A stretch of 64,000 nt of DNA from Rivularia sp. PCC 7116. GTDB taxonomy: Bacteria; Cyanobacteriota; Cyanobacteriia; Cyanobacteriales; Nostocaceae. Positions 11,773 to 40,935 of this stretch are shown in pieces; positions within the stretch are counted from its first letter, which is position 1; every line of letters starts with the position of its first letter. Under the pieces are notes generated by a model. It was given only the letters and a program-made list of their open reading frames with translations, was not told where the DNA came from and did no database searches. The DNA is taken from assembly GCF_000316665.1 (NCBI RefSeq), contig NC_019678.1:2790001-2854000 (forward strand). The letters run 5' to 3'. Both the position numbers and the translations under genes were made by a program.

Positions 11773-13014
11773 TCAAGCAATTTTAGCTTGACTTTGACCA
11801 ATATTAGATTTAATAATCGCCTTGAGCATTTTATCACTTGCCATTCTTGCACCTGATAAATTTCGCGCTGTCGGTCCAATTTGTAAAGCCGCTAACCCAC
11901 CCATAATAAATAACGAACAACCGCGCCACTGTAAGTTATTATCCAAAACGGGTAAACCATTGATTACAGGTATTGGATATGCTTGCAAAACTTCCTTTAA
12001 TAAAGGTTCGGAATTGACATCAAAACGATTTCCGGTAGATAACCAAATGCGATGAAATAGTTTTTGCTCTCCATTAGTAAATTTCACCAACCATTGATTA
12101 TTCATCCATTCAGCCCCAATAACTTGGGTGTTTTCTTGAATTTTCAACTTACCATTATGCGCTTGTCGTCTTAGCTGCGTTACCATTGCAGGAGTCATAG
12201 AACCACCATTTCGCGCTTGCTGAATCATTTCAGAGCGCTTTGCAAAATCTGATTCTGCAAAAAATCCTTTAAGATATTTCGGTCCCAACCAACCAGCATC
12301 CGCATCAAATATCTTTTCCTGTAACTGTCGTTGCATTGATATCTGCACAAACGCACCACGAGACATTGCACCTACCGCTAAATGTCCGCTTGTTAAACCT
12401 CCACCAATAATTAATACTTTTTCACCAGCTAAATATAGTTGACGTAAATCTACTGATTTAGAATGACAAAGTTTATCTTCTGGATAATTTTGGTTAATTT
12501 GACTTATCCAATCCGGTATTTGTAGTTGACTGCTACCAGTTGCTAATACTACCCGACGAGCTAATATTGATTTCCCAGAATCCAACCACAAACGAAACTG
12601 CGATCCAAAAGGATTATTTAATGGTTGAATTCGAGTTATCTTTTCACCAATAACTATATTTTCTAAATCCCAACGACGAATTACATCCTCACAAAAATCA
12701 TTAAATAACCGAGTTCCCGGTAAATCATAGGGAGGGAAAAACTCATTCGAGCGAGACTCTGCAAACTTACGTAATGCAAAAGGATTGGGATCTGGATGAT
12801 GAACCGCAGGAGAACGTAAATGCGGTATTTCCAATGCTGCAAATTGACGCTCCCACTGACTCATCCATTTTCCACTGGGGTCAAACACTGCAATTTTTGA
12901 ACGGATTTTCTGACGTTTCTGTAGCAGATGAGTAACTAAAGTCAGAGCGTGAACCCCAGCACCGATAATTGCTAAATCGATTTTCCTCAAAAGGTGTGGT
13001 GGATTACTTTCCAT
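11773..13014 (-). CDS. FAD/NAD(P)-dependent oxidoreductase (flavin monooxygenase-like), Zur-box gene
   Basis: A 413-residue flavoprotein with an N-terminal FAD Rossmann motif (AIIGAGVHALTLV, about residues 15-27), a second dinucleotide motif (VLIIGGGLTSGHLAV, around residue 200) and the VVLATGSS motif between them. The layout resembles the FAD/NAD(P)-binding hydroxylases related to ornithine/lysine N-monooxygenases. A perfect 7-1-7 zinc-uptake-regulator box lies 29 bases upstream of its ATG, so it is probably induced by zinc starvation. Possible roles are making a metallophore or modifying a low-molecular-weight ligand, but this is inference; no partner biosynthetic gene is in view. Confidence 0.8.
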   Translation of the reverse strand: MESNPPHLLRKIDLAIIGAGVHALTLVTHLLQKRQKIRSKIAVFDPSGKWMSQWERQFAALEIPHLRSPAVHHPDPNPFALRKFAESRSNEFFPPYDLPGTRLFNDFCEDVIRRWDLENIVIGEKITRIQPLNNPFGSQFRLWLDSGKSILARRVVLATGSSQLQIPDWISQINQNYPEDKLCHSKSVDLRQLYLAGEKVLIIGGGLTSGHLAVGAMSRGAFVQISMQRQLQEKIFDADAGWLGPKYLKGFFAESDFAKRSEMIQQARNGGSMTPAMVTQLRRQAHNGKLKIQENTQVIGAEWMNNQWLVKFTNGEQKLFHRIWLSTGNRFDVNSEPLLKEVLQAYPIPVINGLPVLDNNLQWRGCSLFIMGGLAALQIGPTARNLSGARMASDKMLKAIIKSNIGQSQAKIA

Positions 13015-13042
13015 AAATTTTCACTACATATAACAATCATAA

Positions 13043-13057
13043 TGATAATCGTTATCA
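13043..13057. promoter_or_regulatory. Zur box (flavoprotein gene)
   Basis: TGATAATCGTTATCA matches the cyanobacterial Zur operator form TGATAAT-N-ATTATCA with one mismatch between its 7-base arms, and sits just before the reverse-strand gene starting at 13014. Confidence 0.85.
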
Positions 13058-13106
13058 TAATAACATTAGATTTTTCGTAGGTGTCAAAATTTTGAGACTG
13101 CAAATC

Positions 13107-13249
13107 GGCGTTGCTGATTGTAAGTCTGATTTGCCCCCCAACCCCCAATTTTGGGGGAGAAAGAGAATCCCAAGTCCCCCAAGTTTGGGGGATTTAGGGG
13201 GCATAGTACATATAAGAAAATTTTATTCATATTTCAATTCAGCAACGCC
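13107..13249. mobile_element. MITE-like palindromic element
   Basis: Terminal inverted repeats GGCGTTGCTGA / TCAGCAACGCC enclose two internal hairpins (CCCCCAATTTTGGGGG and CCCCCAAGTTTGGGGG). The same family reappears in the opposite orientation around 59833-60152. It has no coding capacity, so any movement needs a transposase in trans. Confidence 0.75.
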
Positions 13250-13268
13250 AGCAAATCTTACTTATTGT

Positions 13269-14159
13269 TTACCTACGCTTCACTTTTGCGACTTCGTGCA
13301 AAACCTTCTGAGAACGATTTAGCTTTCTTGCTCTCGGACGAGTTAATATACCTTGTGAAGGGCTGAATAATAATGCTAATAAAAATAACCCGCAAATAAA
13401 TAATACAATTGATGCACCCGAAGGCACGTTTTGATAATAGCTAATATATAAACCGCCGACGCTACCAATAATACCGATTACAGAACCCAAAAGCATCATT
13501 TGATGAAGCTCGTTTACTAATAAATAAGCCGTTACTCCAGGACCTATTAATAAAGAAATTACTAACACTACTCCCACAGCTTGCATACTAGCAATAATGG
13601 TTAACGTAATTGCTGCCGTCAATCCAAATTTAATAATATTTGTCGGCAATCCGCTGGCTTGTGCGCCTAATGGGTCAAAGGTGTAAAATAGCAATTCTTT
13701 ATAACAAACCTTCACTAAAAGTAAAGTAACAGATGTAATTATTAAAGTTCTAAAAACATCTTCTGTTGTCACCCCTAAAATATCGCCAAATAAAAAGTGA
13801 TGCAAATCAACTTTACTTTTCAGCACGCTAATTAGCATGATACCCAAAGCTAAAAAACCCGAAAAAACCAAAGCCATTGCAGCATCAACTTTAACCCGAG
13901 ACTGCGATTCTATCCAAGCAATTACAAAAGTACTGAAAGTCCCGCAAACAAAAGCACCCAGAAAAATATCAATGCCAAGAAATAGCGCGATCGCAATTCC
14001 GGGTAAAACAGCATGAGCAATTACATCACCAAGTATTCCCTGACGCTGTACTATCAGATAAGAACCAACAACAGAGCAAAGAATACCTAAACTAGCTGCA
14101 ATAACTAGCGCGTCTCGCATGAATCCAAAACTAAGCGGTTCAAAAAGCAAATTTAACAT
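13269..14159 (-). CDS. znuB: Zinc ABC transporter permease ZnuB
   Basis: A hydrophobic protein of 296 residues of the metal ABC-3 permease family. It contains the typical QRQGILGDVIAHAVLPGIA block (about residues 36-55) and about eight to nine membrane helices. With ZnuC and ZnuA it forms the high-affinity zinc importer of the plasma membrane. I start it at the ATG at 14159: the longer in-frame extension (32 residues) is encoded by heptamer repeat DNA and has no membrane-protein character. It lies downstream of znuC on the same strand, and the pair would be read from the promoter at 15000-15090. Confidence 0.92.
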   Translation of the reverse strand: MLNLLFEPLSFGFMRDALVIAASLGILCSVVGSYLIVQRQGILGDVIAHAVLPGIAIALFLGIDIFLGAFVCGTFSTFVIAWIESQSRVKVDAAMALVFSGFLALGIMLISVLKSKVDLHHFLFGDILGVTTEDVFRTLIITSVTLLLVKVCYKELLFYTFDPLGAQASGLPTNIIKFGLTAAITLTIIASMQAVGVVLVISLLIGPGVTAYLLVNELHQMMLLGSVIGIIGSVGGLYISYYQNVPSGASIVLFICGLFLLALLFSPSQGILTRPRARKLNRSQKVLHEVAKVKRR

Positions 14160-14265
14160 TATTGGTACGTAGTTGCGCTTCAGCGCCAAAAATATTGAAT
14201 AAGAACTGGTAATTGGTAATTGGTAATTGGTAGCTGATAACTGCTCACTGTTCACTGCTCACTGA

Positions 14266-15000
14266 TTAAGCCGATTTTTCTTGTCTATTTAAAAATAAAA
14301 TATTATTGCCATAAGCACGCTGTAAATTTTCGGTTGTAACAACTTCCTTCATCGAACCATCAGCGATAATATGTTTGTTTAACAATAATAAAAAGTCACA
14401 TTGAGCTAAAGTTTCACCTAGATCGTGAGTAATTAAAATTAATATCTTGCCATCCCTTCTTAATTCATTGAAAATATTAAACATGATATCTTCAGTGCTT
14501 TTATCAATTCCCACAAACGGTTCGTCAAAAAATAATAAATCAGCTTGCTGTGCTAGCGCTCTAGCTAAAAATACCCGCTGCTGTTGTCCTCCGGATAACT
14601 CACCGATTTGACGAGAACGAAATTCCCACATCCCTACTCTATGCAATGCAGATTTAACTATTTCTTTAGACTTACGGCTTGGCTTGCGAAACCAACCCGT
14701 GCTTACAGTACGAGCCATCATCACTACATTCTGTACCGTAATCGGATAATCCCAATCTACTTGGGTTCTTTGAGGTACGTAAGCAATGGAGCGTAATTGC
14801 TTGTGGATGGGACAGTTACAAAATTTAATAGTGCCATCTGAAACCGGAATTAAACCGAGTATCGCTTTAACCAAAGTGCTTTTACCAGCGCCATTTGGAC
14901 CGATTACACCAACCATCTGTCCGGGGGAAACGCAAAAACTCACATCCTCAACAGCCACTACACCCCGGTAATCTACGTCCAAATGCTCTACTTCTAGCAC
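14266..15000 (-). CDS. znuC: Zinc ABC transporter ATPase ZnuC
   Basis: A 244-residue ABC ATPase. Walker A is GPNGAGKST (about residues 34-42), the ABC signature is LSGGQQQR, Walker B is LLFFDEP and the switch histidine follows in LITHD. The start is a GTG with a good AGGAG ribosome site six bases upstream. The gene overlaps the metal-transport context: znuB follows and znuA is divergent, with two Zur boxes in the 110-base gap between znuC and znuA. The family also includes manganese importers; the boxes and the His-rich ZnuA favour zinc. Confidence 0.93.
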   Translation of the reverse strand: MLEVEHLDVDYRGVVAVEDVSFCVSPGQMVGVIGPNGAGKSTLVKAILGLIPVSDGTIKFCNCPIHKQLRSIAYVPQRTQVDWDYPITVQNVVMMARTVSTGWFRKPSRKSKEIVKSALHRVGMWEFRSRQIGELSGGQQQRVFLARALAQQADLLFFDEPFVGIDKSTEDIMFNIFNELRRDGKILILITHDLGETLAQCDFLLLLNKHIIADGSMKEVVTTENLQRAYGNNILFLNRQEKSA

Positions 15001-15014: not shown

Positions 15015-15029
15015 TGATAATGATAATTA
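15015..15029. promoter_or_regulatory. Zur box, znuC side
   Basis: TGATAATGATAATTA: a perfect left arm and a weaker right arm of the Zur operator, 14 bases before the znuC start, so likely to overlap its promoter or leader. Confidence 0.65.
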
Positions 15030-15072: not shown

Positions 15073-15087
15073 TGATAACGATTATCA
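15073..15087. promoter_or_regulatory. Zur box, znuA side
   Basis: TGATAACGATTATCA: near-perfect 7-1-7 palindrome 27 bases upstream of znuA, in the divergent znuC/znuA promoter region. Confidence 0.88.
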
Positions 15088-15113
15088 TTCTACTGCACTA
15101 TTCCTTATAAGTG

Positions 15114-16181
15114 ATGTTTAGAAAATTACCTCTAAATGCGATTGCGGCGTTAACTTTAGCTTTTGGTTTGATTAGCTGTAGTGGTAACGAGCAAGTCAAC
15201 TCCAATTCTGGTACAGAAGAAAATTCTGCCGTAAATACCAGCAGTACTGCAACGGGGGAGCGTCCTTTGGTTGTTGCGACTACAAGCATACTTTGCGACT
15301 TAACTAAACAAGTAGCGGCTCAAACAGTTGACTTGAAGTGCTTAGTAGATGCAGGTCAAGATCCCCACACATATCAGCCCAAACCGGATGACCGCAAAGC
15401 AATCGAGCAGGCTGATTTAGTTTTGTACGGTGGTTATGATTTTGAACCTAGTATTATCAAATTAGTTCAAGCAAGCAGTAATCAGGCTCCGAAAGTAGCA
15501 GTTCATGAAGTTGCTGTTCCTAAACCAATTCTTGGAGAAGAACACGACCATAGTCATTCCGGACATAAGGAAGAAAAGCACGACGGGCACGACCACGAGA
15601 AAGAAGAAAAACATTCTGAAGAAAAAGCACCAGACCCCCATGTATGGCATAATCCTCAAAATGGCGTACAAATGGTGGAAGCTATTCGTAGTAATTTAGA
15701 AAAAGTTGCTCCAGATAACGCTCAATTGTATGCAGCTAATGCCGAGAAAGTAACCGGGGAAATAAAAGAAATAGATAGCTGGATTAAAAAGAATGTAGCT
15801 ACGATTCCTGCAAATCAACGTAAACTAGTTACCACTCACGATGCTTTAACTTACTATACTCAGGCATATAATATTGACTACGAAGGTGCAATTGAAGGTT
15901 TGAGTACTGAAGTACAACCAACAGCAGCGAGAATAGGTCAACTTTCAAAAGAAATCAAGCAAGAGAACGTACCGACAATATTTGCTGAAAGTACCCATAG
16001 TCCAAAACTAATTGAAAGGATTGCTAAAGAAGCTAACGTAAAAGTTTCTGAGGAAAAATTATATGCTGATAATTTGGGTGAACAAGGTACTGATGCCGAT
16101 ACTTATCAGAAAATGTTAGTTGCTAATACTAAAGCTATTGTGGATGGTTTGGGAGGTACATATACGGCTTTTGGACAATAA
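15114..16181 (+). CDS. znuA: Zinc-binding lipoprotein ZnuA
   Basis: The periplasmic zinc-binding component of the ABC importer. A signal peptide ends in a lipobox (LISC, cysteine 22), so the protein is probably anchored to the outer face of the plasma membrane. The cluster A-I binding fold is recognisable from DPHTYQPKPDD, DPHVWHNPQNG and TTHDALTYY, each with a metal-ligand histidine. Between the first two is a long charged His-rich loop (HDHSHSGHKEEKHDGHDHEK), a hallmark of zinc rather than manganese binding proteins. I prefer the ATG at 15114 to the adjacent GTG at 15111. A Zur box lies just upstream. Confidence 0.95.
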   Translation: MFRKLPLNAIAALTLAFGLISCSGNEQVNSNSGTEENSAVNTSSTATGERPLVVATTSILCDLTKQVAAQTVDLKCLVDAGQDPHTYQPKPDDRKAIEQADLVLYGGYDFEPSIIKLVQASSNQAPKVAVHEVAVPKPILGEEHDHSHSGHKEEKHDGHDHEKEEKHSEEKAPDPHVWHNPQNGVQMVEAIRSNLEKVAPDNAQLYAANAEKVTGEIKEIDSWIKKNVATIPANQRKLVTTHDALTYYTQAYNIDYEGAIEGLSTEVQPTAARIGQLSKEIKQENVPTIFAESTHSPKLIERIAKEANVKVSEEKLYADNLGEQGTDADTYQKMLVANTKAIVDGLGGTYTAFGQ

Positions 16182-16510
16182 TAGCCCTGAGTGGAATTAA
16201 ATTAATTAATCATTAGTTTGACTAGCTTAGAGGTTGTGGAATGAGAGCAAATCAATCAGAATATCTGTGGAAAAGCTGGGCTTCTTAAGAATGCATCAAG
16301 CTCAAAAATTTGATTATTAGCTTAACTTGCTTGTAGATAAATCTAGAAATCTAGTTGATTATTTTTTAGGTTTGGGATGTACTCTGGTTTTATTCGTAAT
16401 TAATAGTTAATCAATATCAGGGGAAAATAGGTGGTGTCAGATATACTTACACCATCTGCGTTTATTCGCTTGCTCTGTATTTAAAATTTGAGTGTGAGGT
16501 GAGAAGAATC
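16182..16510. other. Leader region of the porin gene
   Basis: A 330-base spacer with no gene. I searched it for a Zur-type 7-1-7 palindrome and found none, so the porin is not obviously Zur-controlled even though it is next to znuA. Confidence 0.4.
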
Positions 16511-18079
16511 ATGAAGAAAAATTTGTGGAAGTTTTTAGTAGTTAGTCCTGTCTTAAGCTTTCCGTTTGCAACATCATTATTAATAAATGACAGCGCTGTT
16601 GCACAAACTCAAATCCAAGAAGAAACCTTAGAACAAGTTACTTCTGTTTCCCAGTTTTCAGATGTACAGCCTACAGATTGGGCATTTCAGGCATTACAGT
16701 CTTTAGTAGAACGCTACGGGTGTATTGCAGGATATCCCAATAGTACCTACAGAGGAAATCGGGCTTTAACAAGATATGAGTTTGCAGCAGGTTTGAATGC
16801 TTGTTTGGATAGAGTCAATGAGTTGATTGCAACCTCAACCGCAGACCTAGTTAGTAAAGAAGACCTTGCAACTTTACAAAGACTACAATCAGAATTTTCT
16901 GCGGAATTAGCAACCCTTAGAGGAAGAGTAGATGCTTTAGAAGCACGTACTGCTCAGTTAGAAGCAAATCAATTCTCTACAACTTCTAAACTCGAAGGTG
17001 AAGTAGTCGTGGGGATTACAGATGTATTTGAAGGAGATACTAACGACGACAATACTACATTGGGTGCAAGAGCAAGAATTAACTTCGTTACCAGCTTCAC
17101 AGGAAAAGATACTCTCTACACCAGACTGCAAAGCAATAACATAGTTGGTCCCGATATTGGCACACCCGAAGGAAGCTTAGCCTTTGCTGGTGAGAGCGGA
17201 GATAATGACGTTGAATTAGATGCACTTTGGTACAGTTTTCCTTTAACTGAGAGTACTAACGTCATCGCGATCGCAAATGCAGGTGCAGCAGATGATGTTG
17301 TAGATACAGTTAACTTATTTGATGGTGATGGTACTGAAGGAGCTTTATCTAGCTTTGGTACTCGTAACCCCATCTATGGAGCAATGGATGGTGCTGGTGT
17401 AGGAGTTACCCAAGAGTTTGGCAAGAATCTATCTTTGAGCTTGGCTTATTTAGCTGGTTCTGCAAGCGATCCAAGTACTGATAATGGTTTATTTAACGGT
17501 TCCTACGGTGCATTAGCACAGTTGACCTTTGCACCAAGCGACCGCTTTAAGGTTGGTTTAACCTACATCAATTCTTACAATCAGTTCAATGGTTCTGGTA
17601 GTAGTGCTTCTAACTTCAATACAGTTTCACCATTGGATAATATTTCGACCCTTGCAGATACTCCTTTTAGTGCCGACTCCTATGGTGTTCAAGCATCATT
17701 AGGGATAAGTAAAAACTTAGTATTAGGTGGTTGGGCTGGTTATACCAATGCTCGTAATTTAACCACATCCGCAGCTTTCCCAGACCGTGGAAGTACGGAG
17801 ATTTGGAACTGGGCTGTTACTTTAGGTTTGCCCGATCTGGGTAAAAAAGGTAATTTGGCAGGTATCATCTTTGGTATGGAGCCAAAAGTAACTGATTCTA
17901 GTATTGATGGTTTGAATGAAGATCCAGATACTTCCTACCACATCGAAGCATTCTATCAGTATCAAATTAATGACAATATTGCCATTACTCCTGGTGTGAT
18001 TTGGCTGACTGCACCAGACCATAACGATAATAACAATGATGTAGTAATTGGTACTTTCAGAACTACTTTTACTTTTTAG
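16511..18079 (+). CDS. SLH-domain outer-membrane porin (OprB family, iron uptake porin type)
   Basis: A 522-residue cyanobacterial porin. It has a signal peptide, then one S-layer-homology domain (FSDVQPTDWAFQALQSLVER... LTRYEFAAGLNACLDRV, about residues 48-110), a short coiled coil (LRGRVDALEARTAQLEANQF) and a C-terminal beta-barrel of the OprB type ending in the aromatic-rich TFRTTFTF. The SLH domain would bind the peptidoglycan-linked polysaccharide, the barrel would pass solutes, including metal ions, through the outer membrane. Its position behind znuA suggests a part in zinc entry, but this is inference. ATG at 16511 is chosen over GTG at 16499. A hairpin terminator follows. Confidence 0.9.
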   Translation: MKKNLWKFLVVSPVLSFPFATSLLINDSAVAQTQIQEETLEQVTSVSQFSDVQPTDWAFQALQSLVERYGCIAGYPNSTYRGNRALTRYEFAAGLNACLDRVNELIATSTADLVSKEDLATLQRLQSEFSAELATLRGRVDALEARTAQLEANQFSTTSKLEGEVVVGITDVFEGDTNDDNTTLGARARINFVTSFTGKDTLYTRLQSNNIVGPDIGTPEGSLAFAGESGDNDVELDALWYSFPLTESTNVIAIANAGAADDVVDTVNLFDGDGTEGALSSFGTRNPIYGAMDGAGVGVTQEFGKNLSLSLAYLAGSASDPSTDNGLFNGSYGALAQLTFAPSDRFKVGLTYINSYNQFNGSGSSASNFNTVSPLDNISTLADTPFSADSYGVQASLGISKNLVLGGWAGYTNARNLTTSAAFPDRGSTEIWNWAVTLGLPDLGKKGNLAGIIFGMEPKVTDSSIDGLNEDPDTSYHIEAFYQYQINDNIAITPGVIWLTAPDHNDNNNDVVIGTFRTTFTF

Positions 18080-18262: not shown

Positions 18263-19312
<1,050 letters not shown>

Positions 19313-19698: not shown

Positions 19699-20349
19699 AT
19701 GACTTTATCTTTTCGTCCCGAATTAAATTCTGCCGAGGAAGTTGTTTCATCTTTATCTACACAAAATAAACCAAAGGTTACGGATGAAGAAATGATGCAA
19801 GCTGTGAGAACTTTACTACTTGGATTAGGAGAAGACCCAGATAGAGAAGGACTTAAAGATACTCCTAAAAGAGTTGTAAAAGCCTTACAGTTTTTGACCA
19901 AGGGATACAATGAATCTTTGGACGAACTGTTAAATGGTGCAGTATTTACAGAAGATGCCAATGAAATGGTATTAGTCAGAGATATTGATATTTTTAGTTC
20001 CTGCGAACACCATATTTTACCAATCCTTGGTCGCGCTCATGTAGCTTATATTCCTAATGGGAAAGTCATTGGATTATCAAAAATTGCCCGCATTTGTGAA
20101 ATGTACGGAAGACGTTTACAAGTGCAGGAAAGATTGACTTTACAAATTGCTGAAGCACTCGAAGGTTTACTCAAACCTCAAGGTGTGGCAGTAGTTGTAG
20201 AAGCTAGTCATATGTGTATGGTAATGCGTGGCGTACAAAAACCTGGTTCTTGGACTGTAACCAGTGCAATGCGTGGTGTATTCGCAGAAGATGCCAAAAC
20301 TCGCGAGGAATTTATGAATTTGATTCGACACAAAGCTAATTTTCATTAA
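19699..20349 (+). CDS. folE: GTP cyclohydrolase I, type IA
   Basis: FolE makes dihydroneopterin triphosphate from GTP, the first step to folate and pterins. The 216-residue protein has the zinc ligands of the IA class: Cys102 and His105 in SSCEHHILP and Cys173 in [10 protein letters not shown]. It is thus a zinc enzyme rather than the zinc-independent IB (FolE2) form that bacteria often place under Zur. Type IA paralogues in Zur clusters are known too, where they may get zinc through a COG0523 chaperone; the truncated COG0523 protein follows only 21 bases downstream. A MITE lies just upstream, next to a partial Zur arm. Confidence 0.95.
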
Positions 20350-20370: not shown

Positions 20371-20976
20371 ATGGTAAATAAAACTTCACCATTGCCTGCT
20401 ACCCTAATTCTAGGGTTCGCAGGTAGTGGAAAAACTAGTTTAATTAAATATCTGAGTAATCAAATTGGGACTACTGTAGAGCATATACAAAGCGGTTCTT
20501 CAGAACTTGGTAGTGGTTGTATTTGCTGTAGTGGACTCAAAGATTTAAAACAGTTAATCAAAGATTTACTTATTGATAGAGAAAGCGGAAAAAATCAATG
20601 TCAGCATTTGTTTATCGAAGCTAGTCACGAAACAGATCCAATTCCAGTAATTAGAACAATTCGACAATCTTTTTCCCCAGGAAGTATTTTTTTGAAAGAA
20701 GCGATTACAGTAATTAATGTAGCAAACTATCCACCTACAGATAGCAGAATTGATTTAGTTACCAATCAAATATTTTTTGCCAATAAAATAGTAGTTAATC
20801 ACTGCGACAGCGCAACTGATGAGCAAATAAATAAATGTCATAAACATATTCGTGGAGTAAAATGGCAGCCAATATTTAATGCGATTCAAGGAATTATTAA
20901 CACTAATGATTTTCGCGTGCCTTCAACAGTAGAAGCATCTACAAGTGTTTCTACTGTAATTTCCTTTTCCTCCTAA
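20371..20976 (+). CDS. Truncated COG0523-type P-loop GTPase
   Basis: A 201-residue protein containing only the G domain of a COG0523 (CobW/ZNG1-like) metal chaperone. Walker A is GFAGSGKT (residues 15-22), the metal-binding C-x-C-C signature is GCICC (49-53), and a switch/guanine-base region follows (KIVVNHCDSATDE in place of the usual LNKTD). The CobW C-terminal domain is missing, and the last ~15 residues are Ser/Thr/Val rich. It lies between folE and cysS with short gaps (21 and 57 bases), consistent with one operon. It may feed zinc to, or sense, its neighbours; GTPase activity is uncertain because the NKxD motif is altered. Confidence 0.8.
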   Translation: MVNKTSPLPATLILGFAGSGKTSLIKYLSNQIGTTVEHIQSGSSELGSGCICCSGLKDLKQLIKDLLIDRESGKNQCQHLFIEASHETDPIPVIRTIRQSFSPGSIFLKEAITVINVANYPPTDSRIDLVTNQIFFANKIVVNHCDSATDEQINKCHKHIRGVKWQPIFNAIQGIINTNDFRVPSTVEASTSVSTVISFSS

Positions 20977-21033: not shown

Positions 21034-22497
21034 ATGACTCTAACAATATACAATACCCTCACCCGTCGTAAAGAAACCTTTCAACCTTTAGAACCAGGAA
21101 AGTTGAAAATGTACTGCTGTGGTGTCACGGTGTATGATTATTGTCACCTGGGTCATGCAAGGTCTTATATTGTTTGGGATACAGTACGACGCTATTTAAA
21201 ATTTAGCGGTTATCAAGTGCGTTACCTGCAAAATTTTACCGACATTGATGACAAAATTCTGAATCGGGCTAACGCTGAGAATACATCAATGGAAGAGGTT
21301 TCTCAAAAGTACATTCAAGCCTATTTTGAAGATATCCGTCGCTTAAACGTCATTGATGCATCTGAGTATCCCCGTGTGACTGAAAATATCACTCCTATTC
21401 ATCAGTTGATTGCAGAATTGGAACGAAAAGATTATGCTTATGCGGTAAATGGAGATGTCTATTACAAGACAGAAAACTTTGCTGAATATGGCAAACTTTC
21501 CGGTAAGCAATTAGAAGATATGCAAGCCGGGGCAAGTGGTAGAGTTGATTTAGAAGACTTATCTGGAAAGAAGAAACATAAACCATCTGATTTTGCCTTG
21601 TGGAAAGCAGCAAAACCGGGAGAACCCGCTTGGGAGTCACCTTGGGGAATGGGAAGGCCGGGATGGCACATTGAATGTTCGGCAATGATTCGTGCTAATT
21701 TGGGAGAAACCATTGATATTCATGGTGGTGGTGGTGATTTGGTATTTCCCCATCATGAAAATGAAATCGCTCAATCAGAAGTAGTCACTGGTAAACCACT
21801 TGCTAATTACTGGATGCATAACGGCATGGTGACTGTGAATGGTGTAAAAATGTCTAAGTCTCTAGGTAATTTTACGACAATTAGAGAATTACTTGACCGA
21901 CCAATCGACCCAATGGTTATCAGGTTATTTGTACTGCAAGGTCATTACCGCAAGCCTTTGGACTTTACAAAAGATGCTATTTCTTCGGCTCAAAATGCTT
22001 GGGAAACTCTCAAAAACGGTTTGTTATTCCGACACCAATATGGTGAAAAATTGGGATGGAAGGAAACAAATCTCAATCCAGAAACTGAGTTACAAAATTC
22101 TCAGATCAACAGCTTTCAAACAGCAATGGATGATGATTTTAATACACCAGGGGGATTAGCAGTATTATTTGAACTAGCCAAAGAATTGCGTCGGAACGCT
22201 AATATCATCACTCATCAAGGTAATACGGAAATTCCTTCAGAAAAGCTAAAGCAAATGTGGCAAACTTTAGTAACATTAGCAAAGGTTTTTGGACTTGAAA
22301 TCTTATCCCCAGCAGAAAATAAAAACGCATCCGAAGTACTGAGTAATGCAGAAATTTTAGCTTTAATTGAGCAACGACAAGATGCACGTCAAAATCGTAA
22401 CTTTGCTTTATCCGATTCTATTCGTAATCAATTACAAGCTGTAGGAGTAAATTTAATTGACCAACCGAATGGGGAAACTCGCTGGCATCGGAACTAA
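21034..22497 (+). CDS. cysS: Cysteinyl-tRNA synthetase
   Basis: A complete 487-residue class I synthetase. HIGH motif appears as HLGHA (residues 38-42), KMSKS is intact (VKMSKSLGNF). The zinc ligands used to recognise cysteine are present: Cys29 or 28 in MYCCGVTVYD, Cys in WHIECSAM, and the His/Glu pair in FPHHENEIAQSE. It is therefore a normal zinc enzyme. Its place directly after folE and a COG0523 gene suggests a zinc-starvation paralogue, as cysS paralogues are recurrent partners of COG0523 genes; whether another cysS exists in the genome cannot be seen. A relic of the 3' end of a second copy lies 600 bases downstream. Confidence 0.95.
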   Translation: MTLTIYNTLTRRKETFQPLEPGKLKMYCCGVTVYDYCHLGHARSYIVWDTVRRYLKFSGYQVRYLQNFTDIDDKILNRANAENTSMEEVSQKYIQAYFEDIRRLNVIDASEYPRVTENITPIHQLIAELERKDYAYAVNGDVYYKTENFAEYGKLSGKQLEDMQAGASGRVDLEDLSGKKKHKPSDFALWKAAKPGEPAWESPWGMGRPGWHIECSAMIRANLGETIDIHGGGGDLVFPHHENEIAQSEVVTGKPLANYWMHNGMVTVNGVKMSKSLGNFTTIRELLDRPIDPMVIRLFVLQGHYRKPLDFTKDAISSAQNAWETLKNGLLFRHQYGEKLGWKETNLNPETELQNSQINSFQTAMDDDFNTPGGLAVLFELAKELRRNANIITHQGNTEIPSEKLKQMWQTLVTLAKVFGLEILSPAENKNASEVLSNAEILALIEQRQDARQNRNFALSDSIRNQLQAVGVNLIDQPNGETRWHRN

Positions 22498-22541
22498 TTT
22501 TGATCAGTTACATAATCTTAAATCTAAAATTTAAGATTACT

Positions 22542-22592
22542 ATGAATTGGGCAATTTTAAGTGGTATTTAAGGTAATTTAACGGCTTATCTC
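22542..22592 (+). pseudogene. Fossil 5' end of the metallophosphatase-like gene
   Basis: Seventeen codons match the start of the gene at 26613: MNWAILSGI, stop, GNLTAYL against MKWAILSGIEGNLAAYE. A GAA codon has become TAA and similarity stops soon after. It is a dead remnant of a duplication or recombination. Confidence 0.85.
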
Positions 22593-22824: not shown

Positions 22825-22968
22825 CTATTTAGGACATCCGGTAGCATAAGTCTCCCGTTCTGATATCTCTCGACAGTATTGACAAATGAAGTTGTAAACC
22901 CTGGTACGGATAATTCGGTCGTGTGCTTTGACATTATATTCCCGGACATGAATTTTTTTGCTTGGCAT
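22825..22968 (-). pseudogene. Zur-controlled small zinc-ribbon-like protein interrupted by a stop codon
   Basis: The ATG at 22968 lies 28 bases after a Zur box and opens a basic 47-codon frame (MPSKKIHVREYNVKAHDRII...) with a C-x2-C motif (ICQYC), then TYATGCPK and a TAG stop. In the same frame, past the stop, VEKCNGVASKC continues for 16 codons to a second TAG at about 22774. Ignoring the first stop the cysteines form C-x2-C-x12-C-x6-C, like an incomplete zinc ribbon. So either it is a gene broken by one mutation, or a short real protein ending at GCPK. An in-frame extension upstream of 22968 would translate the operator and is unlikely. Family not recognised. Confidence 0.55.
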
Positions 22969-22996: not shown

Positions 22997-23011
22997 TGAT
23001 AATGATAATCA
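22997..23011. promoter_or_regulatory. Zur box (small zinc-ribbon gene)
   Basis: TGATAATGATAATCA matches the operator with one arm mismatch and faces the reverse-strand small ORF starting at 22968. Confidence 0.75.
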
Positions 23012-23288: not shown

Positions 23289-23299
23289 TTGGCAATCAG

Positions 23300-26610: not shown

Positions 26611-26612
26611 TT

Positions 26613-35948: not shown

Positions 35949-36560
35949 CTAGGCCAAAGCTCTCCAAGACTGTGAAAGTACTGTCCCTGCTGACTTTGCA
36001 AACACAAACGTTAATAATAAACCTACTGCTAAATCAGGAAATATCGAGCCTGTCAGAAACACTAATCCTGCTGCTACAAGAACGGATATATTGGCAACGA
36101 TGTCATTCCTCGAACACAACCACACAGAAGACATATTCAGATTATCCCTTCTATGTCTAGCTAATAACAACAGACAGACTAAATTGGCAAGTAACGCTAT
36201 AACTCCAATCGCACTCATAACGGTTGCTTCTGGAGTTACACCCGAAAAGAATTGATAGGTTGCTCTAGCAAATACCGAAATCGCAAACACAAACATGATG
36301 ATTCCCTTCAGAAATGCTGAGCCAGCCTGAGCTTTACTACCCTTATTAATGACATATAAACTGCTTGCGTAAACCAAGGTATCACCTAGCATATCGAGGG
36401 AGTCTCCAGTCAAAGATATCGAATCCGCACGAATACCTGCTCCAAACTCCACAAAGAACATTACTAGGTTGATAAACAAAACAACCCAAAGAACATTAGC
36501 TTGCTGTTTTTTCAGCTTCGTTAGCTCACAACCTTTGTTTTGACAGCAGTTATCACTCAT
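35949..36560 (-). CDS. Cation diffusion facilitator (CDF) family metal exporter, short form
   Basis: A 203-residue membrane protein with six predicted helices, corresponding to the transmembrane part of a CDF transporter. The C-terminal cytoplasmic domain is missing, as in short CDFs. The TMD2 motif reads SISLTGDSLDMLGD (D-x3-D replaces the usual H-x3-D) and TMD5 reads RNDIVANIS (N-D-x3-N). The N-terminus has three cysteines (CCQNKGC) that could bind metal. It exports divalent metals such as zinc or cadmium. Inverted repeats before it probably are targets of the ArsR regulator encoded 90 bases upstream on the same strand. Confidence 0.85.
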   Translation of the reverse strand: MSDNCCQNKGCELTKLKKQQANVLWVVLFINLVMFFVEFGAGIRADSISLTGDSLDMLGDTLVYASSLYVINKGSKAQAGSAFLKGIIMFVFAISVFARATYQFFSGVTPEATVMSAIGVIALLANLVCLLLLARHRRDNLNMSSVWLCSRNDIVANISVLVAAGLVFLTGSIFPDLAVGLLLTFVFAKSAGTVLSQSWRALA

Positions 36561-36580
36561 AATTTTCCTATGATTTAATT

Positions 36581-36608
36581 ATTCTAATATTCAAACGAAC
36601 ATTAGAAT
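36581..36608. promoter_or_regulatory. ArsR-type operator 1
   Basis: ATTCTAAT-N12-ATTAGAAT, an inverted repeat 20 bases upstream of the CDF start. The arms match those of operator 2, so both probably bind the same dimeric repressor. Confidence 0.75.
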
Positions 36609-36626
36609 GATATCACAAAGAAAGTT

Positions 36627-36648
36627 CATTCTAACGTTGCTTAGAATG
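36627..36648. promoter_or_regulatory. ArsR-type operator 2
   Basis: CATTCTAA-N6-TTAGAATG, a perfect 8-bp inverted repeat right at the end of the regulator gene and upstream of the CDF gene. Confidence 0.7.
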
Positions 36649-36650
36649 AC

Positions 36651-37016
36651 TTACTCAGCAAGTTGCTTTAATGTATAGTAGAGAACTTCTGCTATACGCT
36701 GGTCTTTAAGAGAATAATAAGCTAGCTTGCCATCGTTTCTATACTTTAAAATTTTAAGATCGCGTAGTTTCCGCAAATGATGAGAGGCAGACGCAATTTT
36801 GACATCAAGCAGAGAAGCCACGTCGCAAACGCAAAGCTCTTGACCGTTACTCAGAGCGTGAAGAATCTTTAAGCGTGATTTATCTGCTAAAGCACTAAAA
36901 AGAATTTGAGCATTTTCGATAATATCATCTCCCGGCAATGCTTCACCAACCTCTTGCACTAATTCCGAGTTAAAACACTGGGTTTGGCAAACGTCACTTT
37001 CCTTGGCTTTAGTCAC
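36651..37016 (-). CDS. ArsR/SmtB family metal sensor repressor
   Basis: A 121-residue winged-helix regulator. The DNA-reading helix follows KIASASHHLRKLRDL. The metal site looks like that of CadC/AztR-type sensors: Cys10 and Cys14 in the N-terminal arm (DVCQTQC) and the Cys62-x-Cys64 pair in ELCVCDVA. That cysteine-rich set favours cadmium, lead or zinc. The C-terminal helix (RIAEVLYYTLKQLAE) lacks the D-x-H / H-x2-E pattern of zinc-only SmtB. It would repress the CDF gene until metal binds. It is transcribed away from thrS. Confidence 0.92.
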   Translation of the reverse strand: MTKAKESDVCQTQCFNSELVQEVGEALPGDDIIENAQILFSALADKSRLKILHALSNGQELCVCDVASLLDVKIASASHHLRKLRDLKILKYRNDGKLAYYSLKDQRIAEVLYYTLKQLAE

Positions 37017-37131: not shown

Positions 37132-37146
37132 TGATAACGATTCTCA
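37132..37146. promoter_or_regulatory. Zur box before thrS
   Basis: TGATAACGATTCTCA, one mismatch per arm, 13 bases before the thrS ATG at 37159. Confidence 0.75.
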
Positions 37147-37158
37147 TTCTAGTTGCAT

Positions 37159-39021
37159 ATGGTCAGTTCATTATCCCAATCTCAGGAAGGCTTGCAAGAG
37201 AAAGATGCCCAAAAGCTTGAGCAGATTCGTCATACTTGCGCTCACATCATGGCTATGGCTGTACAAAAGCTGTTTCCGGGGACAAAAGTTGCGATTGGAC
37301 CAGTTACCGATACAGGTTTTTACTACGATTTTGATTGTCCTGTAAGTATTACCCCAGATGATTTGGGTAAAATTGAAGCCGAAATGCGGCGAATAATTAA
37401 GTCAAATTTACCTATTATTCGTGAGGAGGTGGAAAGGGAAGACATTCAAAAAGAAATCACAGCTTTGAATGAACCATATAAGTTAGAAATTTTAGAACGA
37501 ATTCCCGATCAAGAAATAATTACTCGTTATTTTATTGGTAGTCCCGATGCTGGTAATAGAGAATCATCATTGCTTGCTGTAGATAATACAAATAATACAA
37601 AACTTAATCAAGCTAATAGTTATTGGTGGGATTTATGTGCGGGACCCCACGTAAATTTTACTAGAGAAATTAATAAAAAAGCGTTTGCATTATTAAATGT
37701 TGCGGGTGCATATTGGCAAGGAGATGAAACCAAGCCGATGTTACAGCGTATTTACGGTACAGCTTGGGAAACTCCAGAAGAATTACAGGCTTTTTTGAAG
37801 CAAAGAGAAGAAGTATTAAAACGCGACCATAGAAAATTAGGTCAGCAATTAGATTTATTTAGCATTCAAGAAGATGCTGGTGGAGGGTTAGTATTTTGGC
37901 ATCCTAAAGGTGCAACAATTCGCTACATAATTGAAGAATATTGGCGCAAATCTCACATAGAATCTGGTTATAAATTACTATATACACCCCATATTGCTAA
38001 TTTAGATTTATGGAAAACATCGGGTCATTTCGATTTTTATAGTGAAAATATGTTTGATTCGATGGAAGTGGAAAAACAAGCTTATCAAATTAAGCCGATG
38101 AATTGTCCTTTCCACGTACTGACTTATAAAAATAAGCTACATTCCTATCGAGAATTACCATTAAGATGGGCGGAATTAGGAACAGTTTATCGTTACGAAC
38201 GTTCGGGAGCGCTACATGGTTTGATGCGAGTGCGTGGGTTTACTCAAGATGATGCTCATATCTTTTGTTTACCAAATCAAATAGCTGATGAAATTTTAGG
38301 AGTATTGAATCTTACTGAGCAGATTTTATCTGATTTTGGTTTTAATAATTACGAAATAAATCTTTCTACTCGTCCCAGTAAATCAGTAGGAACAGATGAA
38401 GTTTGGGAGTTAGCAACTGCGGCTTTAAAAGAAGCATTAGATAATAAAGGTTGGAATTATATTGTAGATGAAGGTGGTGGTGCTTTTTATGGACCAAAAA
38501 TAGATATAAAAATTCAAGATGCGATTGGTCGTTTGTGGCAATGTTCGACGATTCAGGTAGATTTTAATTTACCTGAAAGGTTTGATATGCAATATGTTGC
38601 TGATGACGATACTAAAAAACGACCAATAATGATTCATCGGGCAATTTTTGGTTCGATAGAACGTTTTTTTGGAATTTTAATTGAGAACTATGCTGGTGAT
38701 TTTCCTTTGTGGTTAGCGCCAATTCAATGTAGATTATTACCAGTTAGCGATGAAGTACGAGAATATGCAGAATCCGTAGCGAAGGAATTGCATAAAGAAG
38801 GATTAAGAGTAGAAGTTGATGGTAGTGGGGAAAGATTAGGTAAACAAATTCGTAATGCGGAATTAGAAAAAATTCCTGTAGTTGCTGTAGTTGGAAAACG
38901 AGAGATGGAAAACCAAAATTTAAGCGTGCGTACCCGAAAAGGTGGAGATTTAGGAGCGCTATCAATCAATGAAACAGTTACTCATTTGCAATCGATTATT
39001 GCTTTGAATACAACTATTTAA
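37159..39021 (+). CDS. thrS: Threonyl-tRNA synthetase, TGS-less Zur-box paralogue
   Basis: A 620-residue class II synthetase. It begins directly with the editing domain (HTCAHIMAMAVQKLFPG and the LCAGPHV motif), so the N-terminal TGS domain of normal ThrRS is missing. The catalytic core has MNCPFHV (zinc-ligand Cys), TQDDAHIFC (His) and MIHRAIFGSIERF (His), so the zinc used to recognise threonine is retained. The anticodon-binding domain follows (GLRVEVDGSGERLGKQIR). I chose the ATG at 37159 over a TTG six bases upstream. The Zur box and position among COG0523 genes point to a second, zinc-starvation ThrRS, a paralogue described in cyanobacterial Zur regulons. Confidence 0.93.
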   Translation: MVSSLSQSQEGLQEKDAQKLEQIRHTCAHIMAMAVQKLFPGTKVAIGPVTDTGFYYDFDCPVSITPDDLGKIEAEMRRIIKSNLPIIREEVEREDIQKEITALNEPYKLEILERIPDQEIITRYFIGSPDAGNRESSLLAVDNTNNTKLNQANSYWWDLCAGPHVNFTREINKKAFALLNVAGAYWQGDETKPMLQRIYGTAWETPEELQAFLKQREEVLKRDHRKLGQQLDLFSIQEDAGGGLVFWHPKGATIRYIIEEYWRKSHIESGYKLLYTPHIANLDLWKTSGHFDFYSENMFDSMEVEKQAYQIKPMNCPFHVLTYKNKLHSYRELPLRWAELGTVYRYERSGALHGLMRVRGFTQDDAHIFCLPNQIADEILGVLNLTEQILSDFGFNNYEINLSTRPSKSVGTDEVWELATAALKEALDNKGWNYIVDEGGGAFYGPKIDIKIQDAIGRLWQCSTIQVDFNLPERFDMQYVADDDTKKRPIMIHRAIFGSIERFFGILIENYAGDFPLWLAPIQCRLLPVSDEVREYAESVAKELHKEGLRVEVDGSGERLGKQIRNAELEKIPVVAVVGKREMENQNLSVRTRKGGDLGALSINETVTHLQSIIALNTTI

Positions 39022-39057: not shown

Positions 39058-39318
39058 ATGAGCTTTTCTTTGGGTAAACAATTTCAGAAAGCCAGTTCTG
39101 AGAAAACTAAGCAAATTAAACAATGGATTTATCAAGCTTTGGAAATTGACGATGAAATTTCTATTTCTTTAAGTCAGCTGCAATGTACGGAACCTGGATG
39201 TCCGCCAATTGAAACGGTAATAAATGTGATGACTAATCCCGTACAACAATACAAAATTCACAAGTCTATTGCTGAGATAGAATATACAGATATTAGTTTG
39301 CTCAAGCAGAATAAATAA
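39058..39318 (+). CDS. Conserved small protein with CTEPGCPP motif
   Basis: An 86-residue soluble protein starting 37 bases after thrS, so likely in its operon. A helical N-terminal part (IKQWIYQALEI) precedes the motif QCTEPGCPPIETVI, with two cysteines four apart (C-x4-C), which could bind a metal. The fold looks like a small alpha/beta domain. I recognise the motif as a recurring short cyanobacterial protein associated with COG0523 regions but cannot assign a function. A terminator hairpin follows. Confidence 0.75.
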   Translation: MSFSLGKQFQKASSEKTKQIKQWIYQALEIDDEISISLSQLQCTEPGCPPIETVINVMTNPVQQYKIHKSIAEIEYTDISLLKQNK

Positions 39319-39320
39319 TC

Positions 39321-39362
39321 GGGAGCATTTCAAAATCGAGATGCTCCCTAAATAATTTTTTT
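39321..39362 (+). terminator. Terminator after the thrS operon
   Basis: An 8-bp stem GGGAGCAT / ATGCTCCC (loop extendable by TC/GA) followed closely by an A/T stretch and a T-run. The stem is related to the GGGAGC hairpins at 2206 and 6596. Confidence 0.8.
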
Positions 39363-39389
39363 GTTATTTGTTGTTGAAATTTATCTAAT

Positions 39390-39776
39390 ATGGCTTCTCA
39401 CACATTATTTGTTTGTAAATCCTGTTACTTTTCAGCTACACAACGCGATTACATGGGCGAAAGGGGTGGTAAACATTTATTAAGTAAGTTACTAGATTTG
39501 CATCAACACTGGTCGTTAAAATCTGAATTTGTCATTGCAGAAGTAGAATGTTTAAGTGCTTGTAAAAGACCTTGTTCTGTAGCGCTTACTGCTCCAAAAA
39601 AAACTAGTTTAATGTTTGGTGATTTACCACCATTAGAAAGTGCAGCAGATATATTAAAATTGTGCGAAAGATATCGTACTAGCACTAATGGCATAGTTTC
39701 ACGAAATGAACGACCAGAAGTTTTACAAAAAGGAATATTAGCACGAATTCCCGCACCGATAGACCAGCAAAAATAG
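39390..39776 (+). CDS. DUF1636 ferredoxin-like metal-binding protein
   Basis: A 128-residue protein of the DUF1636 family, seen in the paired cysteines FVCKSCYF near the N-terminus and the ECLSACKRPCSVAL block in the middle. These resemble thioredoxin-like [2Fe-2S] ferredoxins; family members often lie near cobW/COG0523 genes and cobalamin loci. Here it is followed 89 bases later by the His-rich COG0523 gene, fitting a role in metal insertion. Direct function unknown. It starts after the terminator at 39321, so it has its own promoter. Confidence 0.85.
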   Translation: MASHTLFVCKSCYFSATQRDYMGERGGKHLLSKLLDLHQHWSLKSEFVIAEVECLSACKRPCSVALTAPKKTSLMFGDLPPLESAADILKLCERYRTSTNGIVSRNERPEVLQKGILARIPAPIDQQK

Positions 39777-39864
39777 AAAATTATTTTTACGCTTAAATAT
39801 GTTTAAATAATCTGACAAAAATCAAAACTTAGTAACAACTTAGTAATAAATACCAGGAGAAATT

Positions 39865-40935
39865 ATGACTCAACTAACTGCACCCAAATCTGATATTATT
39901 CCCGATATTCCTAAAAGAGGAATGCCTGTTACTATTATTACCGGATTTTTAGGTAGTGGTAAGACAACATTACTCAATCAAATTCTTCATAACAAAGAAG
40001 ATTTGAAAGTTGCCGTGCTTGTAAATGAATTTGGTGATATTAATATTGATAGCCAGTTACTCATCTCTACGGATGATGACATGATGGAACTGAGTAACGG
40101 CTGTATTTGTTGTACTATTAACGATGGATTAGTTGATGCGGTTTATCGAATTTTAGAAAGAGACGAACGCATTGACTATATGGTCATAGAAACTACAGGT
40201 GTAGCTGACCCATTACCAATTGTTTTAACTTTTTTAGGTACAGAACTCAGAGATTTAACCAATATTGATTCCATACTTACTCTAGTTGATGCAGAAGCTT
40301 TTAATAGCGAACATTTCCAAAGTGAAGCTGCTTTAAAACAGATAACTTATGGTGATATTATCCTCCTCAACAAAACTGATTTAGTTGGTGAAGAAAAATT
40401 AGGTGAGCTAGAAAGTTTTATTAAGGAAACTAAATCTGGTGCAAAAATTCTTCGCACTTCTTACGGTAAAGTTGCTTTACCATTAATTTTAGATGTGGAA
40501 TTGACCCCCAAAGATGAATATTCTTCCTTGATTGAGGAAGATAGTCACGAACATCATCATCATCACCATGAGCACGACCATGACCACGACCATCATCACC
40601 ATGACCATCATGACCACGAACACCATCACCATCACTCAAATCATCTAGAAAATGATGGATTCGTTTCCATTTCTTTCCAGAGCGATCGCCCTTTTGATGT
40701 GCATAAATTTGAGACATTTCTGAATGAAGAAATGCCAGAAAATGTATTTAGAGCCAAGGGTATCCTCTGGTTTAGCGATAGCGAACTACGACATATTTTC
40801 CAACTTAGCGGTCCTCGCTATCAACTCAATGCTGATGAATGGTCTACTACAAACCGCCAAAATCAATTAGTTTTCATCGGTCGCAATTTGGACAAAAATG
40901 AAATTCATTCTCAACTTAACAATTGTTTACTATAA
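39865..40935 (+). CDS. COG0523 GTPase with His-rich metal-binding loop
   Basis: A 356-residue member with Walker A GFLGSGKT (27-34), the GCICC motif, ETTGVADPLP and LLNKTDL. Between the G domain and the CobW C-terminal domain is a loop of about 35 residues made almost only of His, Asp and Glu (HHHHHHEHDHDHDHHHHDHH), which must bind many metal ions and suggests storage or zinc scavenging. The start has the clear ribosome site AGGAG. Its 3' end and flank are duplicated as a fossil behind hemB. I saw no Zur box upstream, in contrast to other genes of the island. The related gene at 27538 lacks the His loop. Confidence 0.95.
   Translation: MTQLTAPKSDIIPDIPKRGMPVTIITGFLGSGKTTLLNQILHNKEDLKVAVLVNEFGDINIDSQLLISTDDDMMELSNGCICCTINDGLVDAVYRILERDERIDYMVIETTGVADPLPIVLTFLGTELRDLTNIDSILTLVDAEAFNSEHFQSEAALKQITYGDIILLNKTDLVGEEKLGELESFIKETKSGAKILRTSYGKVALPLILDVELTPKDEYSSLIEEDSHEHHHHHHEHDHDHDHHHHDHHDHEHHHHHSNHLENDGFVSISFQSDRPFDVHKFETFLNEEMPENVFRAKGILWFSDSELRHIFQLSGPRYQLNADEWSTTNRQNQLVFIGRNLDKNEIHSQLNNCLL

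Follow-up and report, generated by a model that had tools for sequence, protein, structure and literature searches.

Zur regulons have been published for Anabaena and for Synechococcus. The Anabaena regulon, according to a review table, includes znuABC, hemB2, thrS2, folE2 and three genes of the COG0523 type (PMC6103462), and a 15-bp palindrome before cyanobacterial zepA genes is described as fitting the Anabaena consensus. In Synechococcus PCC 7002, hemB-II, folE-II, a GTPase-like gene and an FAD gene of the pAQ7 cluster are reported to increase both on TPEN treatment and when zur is mutated (PMC4628125), and the Zur regulon of Synechococcus WH8102 is given as eight genes, three of them called uncharacterised (PMC9337993). 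In proteobacteria, COG0523 genes are described as often co-localized, in Zur-linked clusters, with paralogs of HisI, HemB, CysS, ThrS and amidase (Haas et al. 2009, PMC2770081). Here we analysed a stretch of 64,000 nucleotides from Rivularia sp. PCC 7116 (GCF_000316665.1, contig NC_019678.1, positions 2,790,001 to 2,854,000; hereafter the window), part of an 8.73-Mb genome in 3 contigs. Positions 11773-40935 of the window, 0.33% of the genome, very probably form an island of zinc-starvation genes under Zur control, in a cyanobacterium of the Rivularia/Calothrix type. Since Zur regulons with these families are already in print, the kind is known and the island is a large further case of it. Its least known part, we think, is a widely conserved, little studied operon of three genes, here denoted PloopS (a P-loop relative of COG0523 proteins), MPE1 (a relative of calcineurin-like phosphoesterases) and MPE2 (a degenerate copy of MPE1), which a preliminary description of the window did not single out.

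The preliminary description had claimed a 29-kb island with ten or more Zur-like boxes. We found eleven good palindromes of the 7-1-7 form, all outside annotated genes, between 13.0 and 37.1 kb, scoring 13.3-22.3 bits leave-one-out, with 10 of the 11 at 14 bits or more. The first, TGATAATCGTTATCA (13043..13057, 20.8 bits leave-one-out), lies ~29 bp upstream of the FAD/NAD(P)-binding gene and has a weaker overlapping site at 13037. TGATAATGATAATTA (15015..15029, 13.3 bits leave-one-out) stands 15 bp before znuC, TGATAACGATTATCA (15073..15087, 20.8 bits) 24 bp before znuA and CGATAATCATTATCA (18274..18288, 20.2 bits) 5 bp before hemB. Four boxes follow within a short distance: TGATAATGATAATCA (22997..23011, 18.9 bits) ~29 bp upstream of an open reading frame (ORF) of 47 aa, TGATAATGATTATCA (23062..23076, 22.3 bits) before a cysS fossil, and two at 23274 and 23300 (23274..23314, 21.5 and 17.6 bits) before the M23 peptidase gene. 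CGAGAATGATTTTCA (27505..27519, 16.2 bits) is directly before the COG0523 ORF at 27520 and TGATAACGATTCTCA (37132..37146, 20.0 bits) 7 bp before thrS. These sites stand where the preliminary description had put them; the box that it had placed before hisI, TGAAAACGATTATCA (24577..24591, 17.8 bits), lies in a gap common to hisI and the operon starting at 24674. A second, weaker overlapping site (9.0-12.1 bits), offset by 6 bp, is seen at 13037/13043, 18268/18274, 23274/23280 and 24577/24583, an arrangement in which two dimers might sit side by side.

The density of good sites, for which the preliminary description had suggested a comparison inside and outside the window, is not equal inside and outside the island: a matrix scan found 13 sites of at least 14 bits in the 29.2-kb island (one inside a gene) and 2 in a 400-kb background of 20 evenly spaced stretches of the same genome. 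The genome-wide test consisted of this sample and three patterns. When up to 3 mismatches were allowed, the consensus given in the preliminary description, TGATAATNATTATCA, matched the window 27 times (mean 10.6 and maximum 18 in 100 shuffles), and with up to 1 mismatch 6 of its 24 distinct places in the genome are in the island. A degenerate pattern drawn from the island boxes themselves, YGANAAYSRTTNTCR, matches exactly at 21 genome places, nine of them in the island; these nine are intergenic, and 9 of the 12 exact sites elsewhere are inside ORFs. For the plainer pattern GAKAAYNRTTMTC, 7 of 33 exact genome places are in the island, and the reversed pattern gives 22 places. One could take the boxes for AT-rich palindromes that arose by chance, with the genes as mere neighbours; looser genome-wide counts would fit, as TGATAATNATTATCA at 2 mismatches matches 205 times vs 197 for its reversed pattern, and the looser YGANAAYSRTTNTCR count is 240 vs 453, with no excess in either case. 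We regard this as highly improbable given the 13 good sites in 29 kb vs 2 in 400 kb, and given that relatives, too, have boxes before these genes, those of PloopS, hemB and thrS being conserved in other gene orders. As the genome as a whole shows no excess over the reversed pattern at loose settings, we draw on the good sites alone.

Besides these loose counts, three observations weigh against the Zur reading. The matrix was built from the eleven island boxes themselves; the genome has four FUR-family genes as candidates for Zur; and at least one good box lies outside the island, near C1:1665964, before a second ZnuA. This ZnuA-like gene, so named by sequence (C1:1664500-1667500, locus L173; further gene copies are likewise given by their coordinates on contig C1 of the same genome), has two overlapping Zur-like sites (of 16.1 and 15.1 bits) and, as a divergent neighbour, a P-loop gene. 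The regulon is thus concentrated in the island, not confined to it. The other COG0523 genes and FolE copies showed no site of at least 12 bits at four loci (L167, L168, L180, L183) and none of at least 11 bits at two (L170, L171), and two more such loci (L169, L172) have one site each, of 13.1 and 11.6 bits, inside ORFs. Within the island, the matrix scan found no strong box of their own before folE, the intact cysS or the SLH-OprB porin gene, although folE has a site of 14.1 bits at a distance of 336 bp upstream.

With four FUR-family genes in the genome, the boxes might instead serve Fur or PerR, so that the island would answer to iron or peroxide. Fur boxes are likewise AT-rich palindromes, which counts for this reading, as does a porin of the iron uptake family in the island. 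The gene content, however, is centred on zinc, and the same families are described as answering to Zur and zinc in Anabaena and PCC 7002; we consider a Fur or PerR response improbable. Shared control by Zur, as the preliminary description had supposed, appears well supported in silico by the density and position of the boxes, the gene content and the agreement with published cyanobacterial Zur regulons, including the znuABC, hemB2, thrS2, folE2 and COG0523 genes and the 15-bp palindromic consensus described for Anabaena sp. PCC 7120. We infer that Zur is the factor and that it acts by derepression. With zinc present, a Zur-type repressor would occupy the 7-1-7 boxes and keep the promoters shut; a drop in zinc would then free the genes, so that ZnuABC import, the porin, the zinc-free HemB, the back-up FolE, CysS, HisI and ThrS and the COG0523 metallochaperones would be released. 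The Anabaena regulon itself reportedly runs to 23 genes in a list by Napolitano from 2012.

The gene list of the preliminary description has Pfam support. For the ATP-binding cassette transporter the genes are znuB, the permease (13269..14255, minus strand, PF00950), znuC, the ATPase (14266..15000, minus strand, PF00005), and znuA, encoding a zinc-binding protein with a His-rich loop (15111..16181, plus strand, PF01297 1.7e-84). The enzymes are a second HemB (ALAD) without the Cys triad (18293..19312, plus strand, PF00490 and alignment to the other copy), an extra FolE, GTP cyclohydrolase I (19699..20349, plus strand, PF01227 and alignment), a second CysS (21034..22497, plus strand, PF01406), an M23 peptidase (23338..24066, plus strand, PF01551), a second HisI (24073..24558, minus strand, PF01502 and alignments) and a second ThrS (37153..39021, plus strand, PF00587). 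Four COG0523-type proteins had been counted, and four there are, all on the plus strand: two full GTPases with PF02492 and PF07683 (27520..28506, and 39865..40935 with a His-rich stretch), a shortened one that consists of the GTPase part with CxCC and has no CobW_C match (20371..20976, PF02492 1e-19 and alignment), and the strongly diverged PloopS (24674..25450).

All five biosynthetic and tRNA enzymes (HemB, FolE, CysS, HisI, ThrS) have further copies in the genome. Relative to the island copies, the other HemB (C1:2020215) is 60% identical, CysS (1894386) 63%, ThrS (3223463-3225214, in two pieces) 52 and 53%, HisI (6659848) 45%, and the two other FolE copies 86% (2984927) and 70% (4727643). 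The Cys triad of the other HemB is replaced by Ala/Asp/Asp in the island copy (ALDPF...GHDG vs CLCEY...GHCG), and judging by these residues the island HemB is of the zinc-independent type, the only one of the five enzymes that is plainly zinc-free. The triad-less form was seen in 24 of 26 relatives with HemB near MPE1, the site lying outside the sequence shown in the other 2. The island FolE, CysS and ThrS retain the residues that we take to be zinc ligands, and of three HisI positions that presumably hold Cys ligands, one is Asp in the island copy; the HisI of Nostoc-type islands is of a different lineage, with Cys kept at that position. Such paralogs have been proposed to use another metal, to use none, or to raise copy number (Haas et al. 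2009, PMC2770081). For Anabaena, thrS2 is reported to rise 200-fold in zinc deficiency, and its product to be active in low zinc, yet in vitro only zinc supported its activity (PMC4787780). The back-up enzymes of the island may be loaded by COG0523 proteins; the same report suspected help of this kind between ThrS2 and its COG0523 neighbour, and describes all attempts to find an interaction as failed, which speaks against it.

To compare the locus with its relatives we used two sets of loci. The first comprises 65 named-record loci located with the MPE1 protein via peptide patterns; the second, 39 loci chosen by hand from 92 genomes of the same class, was located by similarity and not by peptide pattern. 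An accidental 101-base region (L255) was left out, two loci too short upstream (L066, L091) were left out of the box, order and gap counts, and the count of zinc-gene neighbours was restricted to loci of at least 14 kb. The closest named loci fetched, with MPE1 95.5-98% identical, belong to Calothrix parasitica NIES-267 and to metagenome genomes labelled Calothrix, Rivularia and Richelia. In many relatives MPE1 is surrounded by mixtures of hemB, folE, thrS, hisI, cysS, COG0523, znu and FAD genes, whose order differs from locus to locus. At least one such zinc gene is present in 34 of 46 loci of the first set and at least three in 25; for the second set the fractions are 19/39 and 9/39, which are no census, since 39 of 92 were picked by hand, and as the sampling starts from MPE1, all these fractions are valid only for genomes with MPE1. 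The preliminary description had called the concentration of such genes into one stretch unusual. We can agree with this in part only, given these counts of loci with at least three zinc genes, an island on a Trichormus plasmid, and the frequent co-localization described in proteobacteria.

Reshuffled islands recur in relatives, plasmids included. Plasmid A of Trichormus variabilis ATCC 29413 shares with the Rivularia island znuC, znuA, hemB, thrS, the DUF1636 gene, COG0523, hisI, PloopS, MPE1 and MPE2, and likewise has boxes before hemB, thrS and PloopS; it differs in that the plasmid is typed as conjugative and that no cysS, folE, M23 or WD40 gene is annotated in the 20.8 kb fetched. A plasmid of Picosynechococcus PCC 7117 holds a smaller island with the FAD gene, PloopS, MPE1, MPE2, folE and hemB in a row, and the GTPase-like gene of PCC 7002 appears, by analogy of gene order, to sit where this related plasmid has PloopS. 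The pAQ7 cluster of PCC 7002 agrees with the Rivularia island in the Zur response described for its hemB-II, folE-II, GTPase-like and FAD genes, and is smaller. The proteobacterial clusters, similar in combining COG0523 with paralogs of HisI, HemB, CysS, ThrS and amidase under a Zur link, come from other phyla, and the section of the source devoted to them names no phosphoesterase operon (PMC2770081).

In the operon, all on the plus strand, MPE1 (25447..26256, PF12850 2e-20) starts within PloopS, overlapping its stop by 4 bp, and MPE2 (26613..27359) follows. PloopS is upstream of MPE1 in 101 of the 102 loci with room for it, and MPE2 downstream in 95 of 98. The 4-bp overlap recurs in 67 of 102 loci (60/63 in the first set, 7/39 in the second), and in 91 of 102 no more than 13 bp separate PloopS and MPE1. 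We scanned ~500 bp upstream of PloopS with a matrix that excluded the window's own PloopS box, taking windows elsewhere in the same loci as control. A box of at least 15 bits was found in 63/102 loci vs 69/1855 control windows, and one of at least 13 bits in 70/102 vs 86/1855. In 20 loci from small genomes (family f25, 1.6-2.9 Mb) the best sites score 10.2-19.6 bits and lie ~30-165 bp upstream, 11 of the 20 reaching 15 bits. MPE1 itself has matches at 1e-20 in 193 of 386 genomes, 92 of the same class and 101 of other classes; matches in the other classes are distant (those listed have ~34-43% identity along part of the protein) and are not counted as cases of the operon, and in 3 of the 92 (G203, G326, G385) the best match is partial or contains a stop. 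Among the papers listed in a search of open-licence literature, whose scope does not extend to the 2012 Anabaena paper, the operon is in print for PCC 7002 alone, where gene order suggests that it corresponds to a phosphoesterase, an unnamed gene and one that is GTPase-like.

We tentatively propose, at somewhat less than even confidence, that PloopS, MPE1 and MPE2 form a nucleotide-driven, thiolate-rich zinc-handling unit, a suggestion that begins with the residues of MPE1. The fold is that of calcineurin-like phosphoesterases, the nearest solved structures being 3rqz (E 1.5e-19, 31% identity) and SapH, 3qfm, an asymmetric diadenosine tetraphosphate (Ap4A) hydrolase/phosphodiesterase (20%), and the GD, HG and GHTH motifs of these proteins are present in MPE1 as D36, H122, H157 and H159 in 105 of 105 rows. 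The other two motifs differ. When MPE1 is aligned to 3rqz and to four distant relatives, Cys8 stands in place of the motif I Asp and Cys62-Trp63 in place of the motif III Asn-His; in place of DxH all 105 rows have CxH, with H10, and in place of GNH(D/E) all have C62, W63 and D64. Three of the four distant relatives have Asn-Tyr in motif III. C74, C76, C155 and C267 are likewise found in 105/105 rows, and these extra invariant cysteines further set MPE1 apart from 3rqz and SapH. The invariant residues hold in the second set as well, whose 39 rows were retrieved without peptide patterns. The metal-ligand roles, and the catalytic role of the motif III His, are those that we take to be general in calcineurin-like phosphoesterases. 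C59, which was invariant in the first 66 rows and had been considered as a further general cysteine, is kept in 95 of 105 rows overall and was dropped.

The main alternative is that MPE1 has remained an enzyme, namely a SapH/YfcE-type nucleotide phosphodiesterase with a different metal at its Cys site, so that the operon would clear an alarmone or nucleotide made in zinc shortage. Its nearest folds, 3rqz and SapH, the retention of D36, H122, H157 and H159 in every row and a strong conservation that extends beyond the metal site all fit an enzyme, whereas the replacement of the motif I Asp and the motif III Asn-His by Cys and Cys-Trp in all 105 rows, and a COG0523 relative as neighbour, do not; on balance we think it possible, though doubtful. 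Phosphoesterases related to MPE1 (~33-38% identical) are found on plasmids of Bacteroidota and Clostridia (L260-L262); an ACR3 arsenite exporter gene (ars genes) is next to two of these three, and DUF6428 next to two. They share the C-x-C at 74/76 with MPE1, keep the motif I Asp and the motif III Asn that MPE1 has lost, and have GNYD instead of GNHD; no PloopS or MPE2 is annotated in the short stretches fetched. The C-x-C may therefore predate the replacements at positions 8 and 62.

MPE2 is clearly homologous to MPE1 (hhalign 99.4%); it has lost most metal ligands and kept D38 and H128. Three loci (L046, L051, L062) had seemed to encode an MPE2 with its ligands kept; these rows were MPE1 itself, and the 63-row MPE2 table still includes them. 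In PloopS the Walker A P-loop is complete, with G11, G14, G16, K17 and T18 in 61 of 61 rows, and the sole Cys kept in at least 90% of them is C234. An alignment with three COG0523 proteins showed that the CxCC metal motif and the NKxD guanine motif are both absent. At E<=1, 55 of 55 PloopS members match CobW_C (best 3e-6), the window copy falling below the curated cut-off (17.6 of 22 bits), and hhalign gave 91% with CobW_C over the C-terminal part. The structure model has a mean pLDDT of 91, and its best fold match in the PDB is Zn-bound YjiA (4ixm, COG0523, E 3.9e-8), one of nine chains at E <=0.001 that also include signal recognition particle GTPases and potassium channels. PloopS thus resembles the COG0523/G3E metallochaperones in its P-loop, a putative CobW_C-like end and its best fold match, and lacks their CxCC and NKxD, so that it is called a COG0523 relative and not filed as a member.

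The operon may also handle no zinc at all, MPE1 and MPE2 being scaffold or regulatory pseudoenzymes that came under zinc regulation by happenstance. This would suit an MPE2 without most ligands, an MPE1 without the presumed catalytic His and a PloopS without NKxD and CxCC; in purely structural proteins, however, nothing calls for six cysteines, four histidine ligands and a bridging Asp to be kept in 105 of 105 rows, and we find a role of this kind rather unlikely. In the zinc-handling unit that we favour, MPE1 would hold zinc where the phosphoesterase once had its di-metal site, which now contains Cys8 and Cys62 and has lost the presumed catalytic His; PloopS, without a CxCC site of its own, would load or release this zinc by nucleotide binding or hydrolysis; and MPE2 would be a non-catalytic partner. 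The two-protein chaperone systems HypA-HypB and UreE-UreG offer an analogy for PloopS-MPE1. Zinc binding by MPE1, nucleotide use by PloopS and any complex among the three are what we infer from these features. Such a system might even be a new kind of zinc metallochaperone or reservoir, in which the metal site lies on a Cys-rebuilt phosphoesterase partner and not on the COG0523-type NTPase, under Zur control across much of Cyanobacteria down to genomes of 1.6-1.9 Mb, a suggestion that we make with considerable doubt.

A number of points tell against this proposal. The peptide patterns used to retrieve the first 65 loci favour rows with the conserved cysteines that two of them contain. In the structure model of MPE1, residues 66-82, with C74 and C76, and the C-terminus are of low confidence, so that the model does not fix the cysteine geometry. 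The match of PloopS to YjiA has a TM-score of 0.30 only, and ATPase_2, an unrelated ATPase family, is matched by as many PloopS members (55) as CobW_C is. No site of at least 13 bits was found upstream of PloopS in 32 of 102 loci, some of which have the operon behind other zinc genes, and 17 of the 20 small-genome loci have no cysS, hemB, folE, thrS, hisI or COG0523 gene near the operon. As to published data, the phosphoesterase gene G0129 of PCC 7002 and its neighbour G0130 are listed as not raised in the zur mutant (PMC4628125), and the paper on the eight-gene regulon of WH8102 nowhere uses the word phosphoesterase (PMC9337993). Taken as a whole, the Zur-controlled island together with a role of the operon in it is in our judgement the probable explanation. 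If it is true, the operon is a candidate for a third element of the zinc-famine response, besides uptake and enzyme replacement, that would hold scarce zinc and pass it on; as even very small genomes of cyanobacteria retain it, the operon may be relevant to the way in which small cyanobacteria cope with scant zinc. It further opens to experiment the general question whether ligand swapping can convert an enzyme fold into a metal carrier.

The remaining features of the island include the FAD/NAD(P)-binding protein (11773..13014, minus strand, PF13454 2e-12), which recurs in the islands of relatives, and the SLH-OprB porin of the iron uptake porin family (16499..18079, plus strand, PF04966, NF033921). 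Between cysS and M23 lie a fossil of the MPE2 gene start with a stop codon (22541..22588, plus strand, 90% identical to 26612-26659) and a fossil of the cysS 3' end (23097..23200, plus strand, 89% identical to 22394-22497), indicating that the stretch was rearranged by duplication. Repeated elements (gcagagcctc...ggctgggaac) are seen at 22620-22700 and 26300-26540, beside the rearranged parts. The 47-aa ORF (22825..22968, minus strand), with CxxC and a third Cys, is 94% identical in L053 and 72% in L092 and is probably the small zinc-ribbon gene of the preliminary description.

A WD40 repeat protein (28629..29780, plus strand, PF00400) is paired with the COG0523 gene at 27520; parallel to this boxed pair, a paralogous COG0523-WD40 pair without a box is found at L167, and at L168 another COG0523 gene is divergent to the other cysS. 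The island is not purely zinc, being split by a DUF2887 gene (29802-30614) and by the gene of a 1656-aa protein (30738-35708) with DUF4011, AAA helicase parts and an MTES_1575 nuclease, a match to the PADLOC candidate defence family PDC-S37 (1456 bits). A cation diffusion facilitator (CDF) metal exporter and an ArsR-type repressor (35949..37016, minus strand, PF01545, PF01022) precede thrS, and an 86-aa unknown protein and a DUF1636 protein (39058..39776, plus strand, PF07845 1e-40) follow it. Outside the island, a 14.5-bit box at 62175 lies ~300 bp before the gene of a secreted PEP-CTERM-like protein (62486-63247, labelled from its sequence).

Behind the zinc operon, plasmid A of Trichormus variabilis carries a lanthipeptide cluster of the mersacidin type (L259:12197-19541). 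A Zur-like box, TAATAATCATTATCA (18.3 bits), lies ~107 bp before the lanthipeptide precursor gene, and another stands before an iron uptake porin gene; the lanthipeptide is possibly a zinc-regulated peptide.

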